Source of the DNA: Acidobacteriota bacterium
GTDB taxonomy: Bacteria; Acidobacteriota; Thermoanaerobaculia; UBA5066; Gp7-AA6
Direction: 5' to 3'
DNA length: 64,000 nt
NCBI GenBank assembly: GCA_027307335.1
Contig: DAHUXD010000027.1
Span: 1-64,000, forward strand
Shown here: positions 23,627 to 29,086 of the stretch, piece after piece
Layout: the number at the start of each line of letters is the position of its first letter
Position numbering within the stretch: the stretch's first letter is position 1
The notes under the pieces: generated by a model
The model's input: the letters and a program-made list of their open reading frames with translations, nothing else
What the model was told of the DNA's origin: nothing
Databases searched by the model: none
Program-made: the position numbers and the translations under genes

Positions 23627-24901
23627 TCAGGTCTTCGGCGACGGCGGCGGCGACTCCGCCCTCGCCTTCTCGTCCTTCTTCTCCTTCACGACCCGCCGGA
23701 AGACGACCGAGAGCGGCACGGTCTCCTCGCCGCGCTTCACCGTGAACGCCGCCGCGTCGCCCCAGCGCTTCGCCGCGACGAGCCGCGCGAGCGTCTCGCG
23801 GTTCGCGAGGTCCACGCCGTCCATCGTCAGCAGCAGGTCGCCGACCTGGAACCCCGCGGCGGAGGCCGGAGTCTCCTTCTCGACGTCGAGCACCTCGAGG
23901 CGCTGGTCCGGGCGCACGTGGTTCGCGAGGCCGAGGTCCGGGTAGAGGGAGCCCACCTCGCCCGGGACGCCCCAGACGAAGTTGGCGTAGGACGCCTGGA
24001 CGCTCTTCACCGGCCCCTTCTTCTCGTCCTCGACCGCGACGGGGATGACCGATGCGATCCGTCCCGCATACCACTGCTTCGCCTGCCGCTCGATCCCGAG
24101 GCCGTACTGGACGTGGCCCATGCCCGCGAGCACGACCATCACGGCCTTCGGATCCGGGTCCTTCGCCAGCGGGGCGACCGCGTTCCACGCCATCGTCGCG
24201 TCCCACGTGCACTGCGCATTCAGCATCGCCTGCCACTGCGCGTCGCTGCCGCCCATGTGGAAGCTCGCCTCCTCGTCGAAGGAGGCCTTGAAGAGGCGCA
24301 GGTGGTCGGGGCTCTTCGTGTCGATCTGCTTCGGGATGTGTGCGGCCTCCTCCGGCGTGAGGCTCTCGAAGCCCTTCTGCCGGACCTTGCCGACGATCGA
24401 CGGGGGCGCGTTGACGGCGAACATGCGCAGACGGTGGTCGCGGGCGTACAGAAAGATGTCCCGGTAGTACAGCCAGTTGTAGCCCCAGTTGCGGTACCAC
24501 GAGTCGAGGAACGCCTCCTCGGAGACTTTCCCGTCGGTCCAGTCGTCGAGCCACTTCTGCTCGGGGTACGGATACATCTCGAGGCCGATCATCACGCGGC
24601 GGCCCGAGCGATCGAGCGCCTCGATCACCCGCTTCTGGGCGCGGTGGAAGTCCATGCCGATGTGCTCCTCGCCGACGAGGACGAGGCGAACGTCGGCGAG
24701 CTTGCCCGGGAGATCGGCCGGCGTGAGCAGCGCGCCGGAGGAAGTGTCGGTGATCGCGTCGAGGACGACGGGCACCTCCCGGTCCCGGCGGGCCGGGTCG
24801 CCGATCGGAAGCTTGAGGATCTCCTCCGCGCCGAGCGAGACGCCGAGCGTCACGCCGGCGAGGCCGAGCAGGAACCGGCGAACTCTTCTTACGACGTCCA
24901 C
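23627..24901 (-). CDS. ChaN-type (Tiki superfamily) exported protein with C-terminal PDZ domain
   Basis: 424 residues from a GTG at 24901 that overlaps the end of the upstream GreA-type gene by 13 bases; the start is less certain than others. Signal-like segment RRFLLGLAGVTLGVSLGA. Residues ~60-290 carry ChaN features (LVLVGEEHIGMDFH, GLEMYPYPEQKWLDDW, MVVLAGMGHVQYG), a family linked to haem binding and iron-regulated lipoproteins, related to Tiki-type proteases. Residues ~310-400 form a PDZ domain (PASAAGFQVGDLLLTMDGV). The acidic, lysine-rich C-terminus ends PPPSPKT. Likely periplasmic; function not established. Confidence 0.82.
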   Translation of the reverse strand: MDVVRRVRRFLLGLAGVTLGVSLGAEEILKLPIGDPARRDREVPVVLDAITDTSSGALLTPADLPGKLADVRLVLVGEEHIGMDFHRAQKRVIEALDRSGRRVMIGLEMYPYPEQKWLDDWTDGKVSEEAFLDSWYRNWGYNWLYYRDIFLYARDHRLRMFAVNAPPSIVGKVRQKGFESLTPEEAAHIPKQIDTKSPDHLRLFKASFDEEASFHMGGSDAQWQAMLNAQCTWDATMAWNAVAPLAKDPDPKAVMVVLAGMGHVQYGLGIERQAKQWYAGRIASVIPVAVEDEKKGPVKSVQASYANFVWGVPGEVGSLYPDLGLANHVRPDQRLEVLDVEKETPASAAGFQVGDLLLTMDGVDLANRETLARLVAAKRWGDAAAFTVKRGEETVPLSVVFRRVVKEKKDEKARAESPPPSPKT

Positions 24902-26946
24902 GGCGCGATCGAGACGACCTCCGCGGGACCCTCGGCGAAGCCGATCCGGTCGCCCATCTTCGAGCCGAGGAGCCGCGACGCGAACTCCGACTGGTACGAG
25001 TACACGTTCTCCTCGGGTTTCGAGTCCCAGGGCCCCAGGATCGTGACCTCCCGCTCGGCCCCGGTCTCGGCGTCGCGCAGCCGCACGCGGGTGCCGACGC
25101 GGACCTCGGAGACGTCGATCTTCGCCGGATCGAGCGCGCGGGTCCGCGACAGCTCGTCGGCGATCGTCGCGATCCGCGCCGACAGGTACTCGTGCTTCTG
25201 CCGCGCCGCGTGGTACTCGAAGTTCTCGCGCAGGTCGCCGTGCTCCTTGGCGGTCTTCATCGCCTGGGCGTTGGCGGGCAGCTCGACCTGCTTCAGGTGC
25301 AGCAGCTCCGCCCGCCGCGCCTCGATCGCGCCGGCCGTGGCGTAGAGGTACTCCCGCGCCGGCGCCCGCAGCTCGGGAAACTTCATCAGCAGCGCCTCGC
25401 GGACCGTCGCGCGCCGGTGCTCCTCGAGGCCCGCGACACGGTCGAGGGCGTGCAGCATCTGCCGCGCCTCTTCCTCCGAGGTGGCCGCCCGGACGAGCGC
25501 GACTGCGAGCCCGCCCGGCTCGAAGAACTCCTTCATGCGGGCGCGCAGGCCCGAAAACTCGTCCATGCGCAGAGCGTCGGTCAGCGCGAAGAAGAGCGAC
25601 GCGTTCTCGACGCGGTTCTCGGCGTGCATCCGGTCGGCCAGCCACACGAACGCGCGCGGCGCCGAGCGGGGCGAGCGGAGAATCTTCCTCGAGAGGTCCG
25701 CCGCCCCGTCGCCGAGCGCGTCGAAGAGGGTCGTCAGAACGCGGCCGTCCTCCTCGCGGGCGATCTGGTCGGCGAAGAGCGCCGGCCAGTCCGGCCGGGC
25801 GGCCCGCACCGCGAGGAGCGCCTTCTCGCGCGCGGCCTGGTCGCGGATCTCCGACACGACGCGGCCGACGTCCGGCGCCGCGAGCAGGGCGTCCGCCGGG
25901 AACGCCTCGGGCTCCCCCGGAGCGAGTCGCAGCGCGTTCTGAGACAGCTCCCACGCGAGCGGCGGCTTCGTCGCCGCGAGGCGCCGCGCGTCCTCGGCGA
26001 GCGCCGCCGCGAAGAAGCGGGCGAGGTCCTTCGAGCGCTTCGCGTGCTTCCGGGCGAGATCGATCCGCGCGGCCGGCGGAGCGTTCTGGAACGCGGTCTT
26101 CACGCTCTCCTCGGCGGCGTCGGCGCTGGAGCTCCACGCCACGGTCGCGGACTTCGAGCTTCCGGAGACGAGCACCTGCCGGTTCTTCCGCGCGGCGGTC
26201 CAGAAGGCGGACCAGCGGTCCTCCGGCACGACCCCCGCGAAGTGGTCCTTGACGTCCTGGAGCGTCAGCGGCTTGCCGAAGCTGGCGAGCAGGAGCCGGA
26301 GCGCCTCGGCGGGCTCCCCCTCCGCGAGCGCCCGCAGGCCGGCGGGGTCCTCCACCTTGCGTCGCAGGAAGTGCTCCTCGGGCAGCGCCACGAGGTTCTT
26401 CTCGGCGGAGACGAGCGACAGCGGGACCCGGGTCCCGGCGACCTCGAGGCGCATGACGTCGAGGGCGGGATTCATCTCCGCGAGGCGCCCGGCTCCCCGG
26501 CCGGGCATGTAGTAGATCTGCCCGGGACGGAACGACAGCCAGCGCGCGATCTTGCCGGCGACGTCCGAGGGATCCTGGGCCTTGTCCACCGGGAACTGCG
26601 CGACGACGGCCGACAGCGCGGGGTGGCCGCCGAAGCGCTGCTTGAGCGTCGCGGCGAGCTCCTGCCGGACGGTGGGATCCGTCGGCGCCATTCGGGCGAT
26701 CTCGAGGAGGACCCTGGTCTTGTCTTCCCCATCCGCCGAGTCGTGAAACTCCGCGAGCAGGCGCAGCCAGGCGACGGCCTGCGCGCCCCCGCCCTTCTTC
26801 TTGACCGCCGCGGCGAGCGCGAAGAAGAACGGAAGGTCCTCGCCGCGCTCCTCGACCCGCTTCGTCCACAGGGCCTCGAGCGCGTCGAACTTCTTCTGGT
26901 CGACCAGGGTCTGGATTTCGGGGGGCAGGGGCGGAGCGCTCGACAT
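24889..26946 (-). CDS. Long-form GreA-type transcription elongation factor with large N-terminal extension
   Basis: 685 residues. The last ~160 are a full GreA: coiled coil with the tip EHGDLRENFEYHAAR, where Asp and Glu are the residues that enter the RNA polymerase secondary channel, and the FKBP-like C-terminal domain (VGTRVRLRDAETGAEREVTILG, SRLLGSKMGDRIGF). The first ~520 residues are helical and TPR-like with no family I can name. Extended GreA proteins are known in Chlamydia and Borrelia; ordinary GreA has about 160 residues. Function should be rescue of backtracked polymerase by transcript cleavage; the extension's partner is unknown. A TAGTAT box lies 10 bases before the ATG. Confidence 0.88.
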   Translation of the reverse strand: MSSAPPLPPEIQTLVDQKKFDALEALWTKRVEERGEDLPFFFALAAAVKKKGGGAQAVAWLRLLAEFHDSADGEDKTRVLLEIARMAPTDPTVRQELAATLKQRFGGHPALSAVVAQFPVDKAQDPSDVAGKIARWLSFRPGQIYYMPGRGAGRLAEMNPALDVMRLEVAGTRVPLSLVSAEKNLVALPEEHFLRRKVEDPAGLRALAEGEPAEALRLLLASFGKPLTLQDVKDHFAGVVPEDRWSAFWTAARKNRQVLVSGSSKSATVAWSSSADAAEESVKTAFQNAPPAARIDLARKHAKRSKDLARFFAAALAEDARRLAATKPPLAWELSQNALRLAPGEPEAFPADALLAAPDVGRVVSEIRDQAAREKALLAVRAARPDWPALFADQIAREEDGRVLTTLFDALGDGAADLSRKILRSPRSAPRAFVWLADRMHAENRVENASLFFALTDALRMDEFSGLRARMKEFFEPGGLAVALVRAATSEEEARQMLHALDRVAGLEEHRRATVREALLMKFPELRAPAREYLYATAGAIEARRAELLHLKQVELPANAQAMKTAKEHGDLRENFEYHAARQKHEYLSARIATIADELSRTRALDPAKIDVSEVRVGTRVRLRDAETGAEREVTILGPWDSKPEENVYSYQSEFASRLLGSKMGDRIGFAEGPAEVVSIAPWTS

Positions 26947-26976: not shown

Positions 26977-27013
26977 CCCCTCTCCCTCCGGGAGAGGGGC
27001 AGGGGTGAGGGGA
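26977..27013. repeat. Intergenic G/C-block palindromic repeat, copy 1
   Basis: CCCCTCTCC...GGAGAGGGG hairpin followed by CAGGGGTGAGGGGAG. Nearly identical to 50581-50617; the last 14 bases recur at 56637-56650. Lies between the enolase-superfamily gene and the GreA gene. Such sequences are dispersed intergenic repeats in many genomes; here it could also weaken read-through. Confidence 0.7.
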
Positions 27014-28204: not shown

Positions 28205-29086
28205 ATGCCCGGCGCCAAGACGCTGCTCTTCCTCGCCCTGGGCGCGGTCACGCTGGTGTTCGTCGTGGCGTGGGCGATCTCCGCGCGCCGCTCGAAGGAG
28301 CGCGCGCAGCCGGGGCCGATGGCCCTCGCGATCGGGTTCGTGACCAACTTCTTCGACACGCTCGGCATCGGCTCGTTCGCGCCGACGACGTCCATCTGGA
28401 AGCTGAAGGGCATCGTGCGCGACGAGAAGATTCCCGGCACGCTCAACGTCGGCCACGCCATCCCGACGATCACCCAGGCCTTCATCTTCATCGCGATCGT
28501 CCAGGTCGAGATGACCACCCTGATCGGGATGATCGCGGCGTCGGTCCTGGGCGCGTGGCTCGGCGCGGGCGTCGTCTCCGCGTGGCCCCGCCGGACGGTC
28601 CAGGTCGGCATGGGGCTCGCGCTCCTCGCCGCGGCATCGTTCTTCGCGATGACGAACCTGGGGCTCTTCCCGGCCGGCGGCGACGCGCTCGGGCTGAGCT
28701 CTCCCCTGCTCTGGGCGGGACTCATCGGCAACTTCGCCCTCGGCGCGCTCATGACGCTCGGCATCGGCCTCTACGCGCCGTGCATGATCCTCGTGGCCCT
28801 GCTCGGCATGAACCCGCGCGCCGCCTTTCCGATCATGATGGGCTCGTGCGCCTTCCTCATGCCGATCGGGGGGCTGCGCTTCGTCGCGCGCGGCAGCTAC
28901 AGCCTGCGCGCGGCGCTCGGGCTCACGATCGGCGGCATTCCGGCCGTGCTGCTCGCGGCCTTCGTCGTCAAGTCGCTGCCGCTGACGGCGCTGCGGTGGC
29001 TCATCTTCGCCGTCGTCCTGTACACCGCCGTCGCCATGCTCCTCTCGGCCCGGCGCCGCGAGGCGCGGGTCGAAGTCCTCGCCTGA
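28205..29086 (+). CDS. TauE/SafE-family anion (sulfite/organosulfonate) exporter
   Basis: 293 residues with about eight membrane helices. The two internally repeated halves each have a Gly/Pro-rich helix (GFVTNFFDTLGIGSFAPTTS and LIGNFALGALMTLGIGLYAPC), typical of TauE/SafE (DUF81) proteins, which move sulfite, sulfoacetate or related anions. No sulfur-metabolism gene is adjacent, so the substrate is open. Divergent from the enolase-superfamily enzyme, with a TACACT box and apparently leaderless. Confidence 0.85.
   Translation: MPGAKTLLFLALGAVTLVFVVAWAISARRSKERAQPGPMALAIGFVTNFFDTLGIGSFAPTTSIWKLKGIVRDEKIPGTLNVGHAIPTITQAFIFIAIVQVEMTTLIGMIAASVLGAWLGAGVVSAWPRRTVQVGMGLALLAAASFFAMTNLGLFPAGGDALGLSSPLLWAGLIGNFALGALMTLGIGLYAPCMILVALLGMNPRAAFPIMMGSCAFLMPIGGLRFVARGSYSLRAALGLTIGGIPAVLLAAFVVKSLPLTALRWLIFAVVLYTAVAMLLSARRREARVEVLA

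Follow-up and report, generated by a model that had tools for sequence, protein, structure and literature searches.

A long-form GreA with a predicted Tudor/KOW barrel in its N-terminal extension is the only GreA detected in sampled genomes of an Acidobacteriota class

Ordinary GreA proteins, such as that of Escherichia coli (structure 1grj), are about 150-160 residues long and consist of a coiled coil, tip acids, of which D41 and E44 are catalytically important in the E. coli protein, and a C-terminal domain. Much longer forms are represented by two NCBIfam models, PRK14720 (NF011309; 906 positions), which we take to describe the long GreA of Borrelia, and PRK06330 (NF004969), named 'transcript cleavage factor/unknown domain fusion protein' and presumably describing that of Chlamydia. 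A chlamydial 'GreA C-terminus' entry is also named in PMC3899948, and our literature search, for the larger part a weak negative, listed no paper on the extension among the titles and abstract openings it covered. A different set of transcription-related proteins is relevant to the architecture of the extension. According to PMC5397179, the RNA polymerase interaction domain of PcrA is a Tudor-like barrel that contacts RNA polymerase and resembles RapA, CarD, Mfd, NusG and PHF1, and the surface residues mutated for RNA polymerase binding include H681 and W684; PMC8318588 assigns the PcrA site to a beta-subunit insert that is lineage-specific.

Here we analyze a long-form greA gene located in the window, a 64,000-nucleotide stretch of contig DAHUXD010000027.1 from an Acidobacteriota bacterium of the class Thermoanaerobaculia (assembly GCA_027307335.1). 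The gene occupies positions 24889..26946 of the minus strand, on which all features of the protein described below are encoded, starts with ATG, ends with TAA and encodes 685 residues followed by the stop codon. Translation and Pfam search delineated an intact GreA portion at residues 535-683, preceded by an N-terminal extension of about 530 residues. The GreA_GreB_N domain (PF03449) was detected at residues 535-602 (E 1.6e-17, 63.9 bits vs a gathering score of 24.5) and the GreA_GreB domain (PF01272) at residues 613-668 (E 3.3e-13, 49.9 bits vs a gathering score of 26.9), and Pfam produced nothing significant within residues 1-530. The coiled coil spans residues 535-604 (25135..25344), as indicated by PF03449 and the match of the model to 1grj, and the C-terminal domain spans residues 613-683 (24898..25110). 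The catalytic tip GDLRENFEY, residues 570-578 (25213..25239), was located by translation, by alignment to 1grj and by comparison with relatives; in the 1grj alignment, D571 and E574 of the long GreA sit on D41 and E44 of the E. coli protein. The modeled residues 532-683 superimpose on 1grj with Z 11.2 over 139 residues. A preliminary description of this DNA, made from the sequence alone, had reported a 685-residue GreA with a long N-terminal extension and with an intact catalytic tip and C-terminal domain, and both of these observations are confirmed.

All 60 of the 60 relatives examined match the long GreA, mostly over nearly the full length in a single open frame, the rest being partial or split matches; the length of the protein is therefore not the product of a mis-called start or a frame fusion. 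Extraction by phmmer search yielded 52 long relatives (two of which, L007 and L002, are the same stretch) that together with the window protein make 53 sequences, and an alignment of 41 members was picked from these with near-duplicates omitted. The pattern G-D-L-x-E-N-[FA]-E-Y, including both acids, is present in 52/52 of the extracted long relatives, and 41/41 of the aligned members match both PF03449 and PF01272. These data bear on the reading of the protein as a Gfh1-type anti-cleavage factor rather than a GreA. Although Gfh1 structures do appear among the sequence and structure matches, in sequence it is E. coli GreA that matches best (4e-14 vs 2e-4 for Gfh1), and given also that none of the 52 relatives lacks either tip acid, we consider this assignment very unlikely. 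With respect to subfamily, the protein scores 120.3 bits against TIGR01462, the greA subfamily model of NCBIfam, below the curated cut-off of 139.

In the genome from which the window originates (96.5 % complete), the long GreA is the single GreA_GreB match, no other GreA or GreB was detected, and there is one match to a DksA/TraR-type zinc finger; the check for a normal greA elsewhere, which the preliminary description had proposed, thus found none. The same holds throughout the class: among 297 sampled phylum genomes, each of the 33 genomes belonging to the same class has exactly one GreA_GreB match, and all 33 carry the extension. Given the single GreA_GreB match and the extension in 33/33 genomes, the long form probably performs the ordinary GreA job in this class; because it is the sole GreA detected in the whole class and has retained the catalytic tip, it very probably carries out transcript cleavage of the ordinary GreA kind. 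The class-wide conservation is also pertinent to the possibility that the length is an artefact of annotation or assembly and that the true start lies near residue 530. Inspection by eye revealed no clear ribosome-binding site directly upstream of the ATG, a point in favour of such an artefact, but the extension is conserved in 33/33 class genomes and matches independently built models. Together with the open-frame relatives, this refutes the artefact as a general explanation, and for the window gene itself the chance of it is negligible.

Outside the class, the full extension was found in one of 264 phylum genomes (G084; locus G084:C169:31500-34600), which has one GreA_GreB match and is of uncertain placement in the tree, and 7 of the 264 genomes produced weak matches confined to about the first 140 positions of the extension. 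Among the GreA matches listed from outside the class, which were taken in order of score from the best down, the frames are mostly about 150-250 residues long, with some longer. Separately, 42 of the 297 phylum genomes, several of them more than 95 % complete, have no GreA_GreB match at all. Beyond the phylum, two Sumerlaeota records encode a full-length relative of the long GreA with 25-26 % identity. A tree of the GreA part comprised 73 rows, after omission of 12 near-duplicate long rows and with a usable row obtained for 29 of the 30 short loci. In this tree, 40 of the 41 class rows fall on one side of a branch with support 88/70, and the 29 short phylum rows fall on one side of another branch with support 95/79, a moderately supported separation. 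The class row outside the 40-row group (L181) appears to be a bad extraction with an end branch of 6.2 and is uninformative, and one further row (L064) likewise has a very long branch. The G084 protein and the Sumerlaeota proteins lie between the class rows and the short rows with weak support, and for this reason we claim no history of transfer.

The extension is not peculiar to these bacteria. When searched alone against NCBIfam, it matched PRK14720 with E 7.4e-16 (residues 11-303 to profile positions 176-475) and PRK06330 with E 1.5e-15, the best stretch being residues 148-255, and 41/41 of the aligned members match both models. PRK14720 thus has in common with the window protein a GreA domain (residues 534-671) and a homologous extension, its profile being about 220 positions longer, and PRK06330 shares the GreA domain and the stretch 148-255, which takes in much of the barrel and of the winged helix described below. 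The whole protein reaches 186.3 bits against PRK14720 (curated cut-off 714) and 149.3 bits against PRK06330 (curated cut-off 697); as both cut-offs are missed widely, the long GreA is not to be filed in either equivalog. Judging from these profile matches, the extension is an old part shared with the known long-GreA models, in agreement with the kinship with the long GreA of Chlamydia and Borrelia suggested in the preliminary description, insofar as these models are the forms that we recall them to be. The gene type is accordingly already known from sequence models; what appears new, relative to Pfam, NCBIfam and the literature searched, is its status as the sole GreA throughout a class and the reading of part of the extension as a Tudor/KOW barrel.

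The anatomy of the extension was approached with AlphaFold models, each built from four sequences only, with a mean pLDDT of 81.0 for the whole protein and 82.1 for a model of residues 118-310. The whole-protein pTM is 0.46, so that the model does not show how the domains lie with respect to one another, and parts of the GreA C-terminal domain are of low confidence. The predicted domain order is helical repeats, barrel, winged helix, more helical repeats and GreA. The first set of TPR-like repeats covers residues 9-137 (26536..26922; model helices from 9-16 to 126-137). It is followed by the putative Tudor/KOW (SH3-like) barrel at residues about 138-190 (26377..26535), supported by two models, fold matches and profile tests, and by a winged-helix-like domain at residues about 201-273 (26128..26346), supported by two models and fold comparisons. 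The second set of repeats, HEAT/TPR-like, covers residues 274-530 (25357..26127; model helices 274-522). The description of the extension as helical made previously therefore holds for most of its length, as helical repeats make up the bulk of it, but not for the barrel and the winged helix seen in two models. In fold searches with the whole model, the helical stretches matched PAF complex subunits as well as HEAT and TPR proteins, mostly with a large rmsd, and these matches were set aside as generic helical repeats. Those of the winged helix, FoxP3 (Z 6.7) and MarR-type winged helices, are taken to point to the winged-helix fold only. Pfam search of the 41 members identified no family that covers the extension; scattered hits to FliG_M (3 members), DUF4777 (3) and UL17 (2), along with single weak matches, were taken as chance.

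Conservation across the 41 sequences is uneven along the extension. The mean pairwise identity is 0.43 for the barrel and 0.40 for residues 191-273, comparable figures to the 0.42 of the GreA C-terminal domain, whereas the two helical parts, at 0.28 and 0.30, are much less conserved. Only five residues of the extension are invariant (E24, G142, G151, G153 and W435), and three of these are the glycines of the barrel signature G142-x8-G151-x-G153 (26488..26523), which is invariant in 41/41 members. This distribution is relevant to an alternative under which the extension is a regulatory arm that unleashes cleavage only when it is needed, its repeats either binding a signalling protein or folding back onto the coiled coil, and the barrel being structural. 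Helical repeats are common protein-binding scaffolds and, in the model, account for most of the 530 residues, which would suit such an arm. However, it is the helical parts that are the least conserved and the barrel and the winged helix that are the most conserved regions of the extension; furthermore, the window neighbours of the gene, ChaN and MR_MLE, are not conserved neighbours within flanks of about 1.5 kb. On balance, a regulatory arm seems to us unlikely.

The neighbourhood itself appears to be of local nature. The downstream ChaN-PDZ gene (23627..24901, minus strand, 424 residues, GTG start), which is not part of the system, overlaps the stop codon of the long greA (24889-24891) by 13 bases. 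The preliminary description had considered this overlap unusual, a view that the comparison does not bear out: in flanks that mostly measured about 1.5 kb, ChaN was encountered in 3 of the 52 other loci, on the opposite strand each time, so the overlap is local and uninformative, and the two genes are an ordinary close pair. The three loci (L079, L080 and L082) come from three genomes of one family. A gene for an enzyme of the mandelate racemase/muconate lactonizing type (MR_MLE) precedes the long greA in the window and is next to it in none of the 52 other loci, again within flanks of this size. Close to the start of the long greA, on its upstream side, the palindrome CTCTCCC-TCC-GGGAGAG is found at window positions 26980-26996; its pattern occurs at 99 sites in the genome vs one for a reversed control pattern and thus is a dispersed REP-like element. 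A gene for a TauE/SafE-type permease is located near the greA cluster on the plus strand (28205-29086).

Fold comparison of the barrel module led to Tudor-like domains that bind RNA polymerase, together with other barrels. The top Foldseek matches were CarD (4kbm_B, E 0.034) and the C-terminal domain of UvrD (7egt_B, E 0.041, probability 1.00, TM 0.80 by target), after which came Spt/NusG-type domains, Mfd (6aca and 6ac8), the PHF1 Tudor domain and UvrD 7egs_B, bound to the lobe domain of E. coli polymerase; no Foldseek match reached E <= 0.001. In VIA-align, the barrel matched CarD with Z 6.6 (1.8 A over 50 residues), UvrD 7egs with Z 6.5 (2.1 A over 52), PcrA 5dma with Z 6.4 (1.9 A over 49) and RapA 8t0l with Z 5.7 (1.5 A over 48), all Z values for the module being below 8, a range that can reflect common fold alone. 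The same fold lists also contain NusG, Tudor domains of eukaryotes and the barrels of myosin and Hfq, with CarD and UvrD ranking above NusG in both. The Tudor-like domains of CarD, Mfd/TRCF, UvrD/PcrA and RapA thus are barrels of about 50 residues like that predicted for the long GreA, with rmsd of 1.5-2.1 A; unlike them, the latter is attached to GreA. The KOW domain of NusG is a barrel of the same class but in a different protein context.

At the sequence level, the TRCF and UvrD proteins encoded by related genomes have the same G-x8-G-x-G spacing. A simple profile comparison was weak, with 17 % probability for CarD/TRCF (10 rows) and 4 % for UvrD (22 rows), and none of the 41 members matched CarD_TRCF_RID or PcrA_UvrD_tudor in Pfam at E 0.1. 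In a sequence test independent of the models, the barrel was then scored against 127 sequence windows of related genomes, drawn from TRCF, from UvrD and from the remainder of the long GreA. The eight best windows, with scores of 18.3-22.3, all hold the start of the TRCF RID (best score 22.3) or of the UvrD Tudor domain, the best other window scored 13.6, and a window with only the first RID residues (start 435) stayed at background level with 13.5. In a specificity control with 11 rows each, the score was 11.7 for ribosomal L24 and 25.4 (p 9e-5, hhalign) for the NusG KOW domain, the NusG alignment being of low diversity (Neff 1.5). The RID/Tudor windows hence score above L24 and all other windows tested and below the NusG KOW, and since 25.4 exceeds the 22.3 of the TRCF RID, the sequence gives no preference to the Tudors that bind polymerase, which weakens a polymerase-only reading. 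Collectively, the comparisons of models and profiles place the predicted barrel in the Tudor/KOW group.

The control result lends weight to a reading in which the barrel is used in the manner of the NusG KOW domain, binding a partner other than the polymerase (ribosomal protein S10, Rho or nucleic acid) and coupling cleavage to translation or termination. The KOW domain of NusG is known to bind Rho. Its binding to S10 is named in PMC5397179, and it obtained the highest hhalign score among the barrels compared, NusG being also present in both fold lists. However, apart from the low diversity of the NusG alignment, the match begins only at barrel column 18, outside the G-x8-G-x-G signature, and NusG follows CarD and UvrD in the fold lists; we regard this use of the barrel as rather improbable. 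With regard to PcrA, the residues of the window protein at the positions of H681 and W684, assigned by shared spacing, are M147 and R150, which do not match.

The reading that we favour, with a probability of about one half, is that the long-form GreA is the transcript-cleavage factor of the cell and that its own arm keeps it on the transcription complex. The intact sequence and fold of the C-terminal 150 residues suggest that they work like ordinary GreA: their C-terminal domain would dock at the secondary channel, and D571 and E574, borne by the coiled coil, would reach the active site and trigger cleavage of backtracked RNA. The N-terminal 530 residues would form a helical-repeat scaffold presenting the barrel and the winged helix. 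Going by the models, a contact of the barrel with the transcription complex is the most likely role for it. By analogy with CarD, Mfd and UvrD/PcrA, the first candidate for its partner is RNA polymerase beta, a NusG-like partner being the second; the winged helix may make contact with nucleic acid. The cleavage factor would so be kept on the elongating or stalled polymerase. The preliminary description had proposed that the extension tethers polymerase rescue to another process, which may be the case, but the predicted domains speak in the first place for a tether to the transcription complex, NusG-KOW-like binding to another partner being the rival; the interpretation given in that description is thus partly supported. 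More tentatively, the extension of the class, of Sumerlaeota and of the two NCBI models might be a self-tether, in which a RID/Tudor barrel grips beta as the coiled coil enters the secondary channel, the class having given up ordinary GreA for a resident cleavage factor bound at two points.

If true, such a self-tether would join Mfd/UvrD-type and Gre-type contacts in one chain. The proposed scaffold, barrel and winged helix also provide a testable role for the part that one of the NCBI long-GreA models names an 'unknown domain fusion'. Finally, if the barrel binds polymerase, the cleavage factor could stay permanently on the enzyme, and the balance of backtracking, pausing and repair would be altered in these bacteria.
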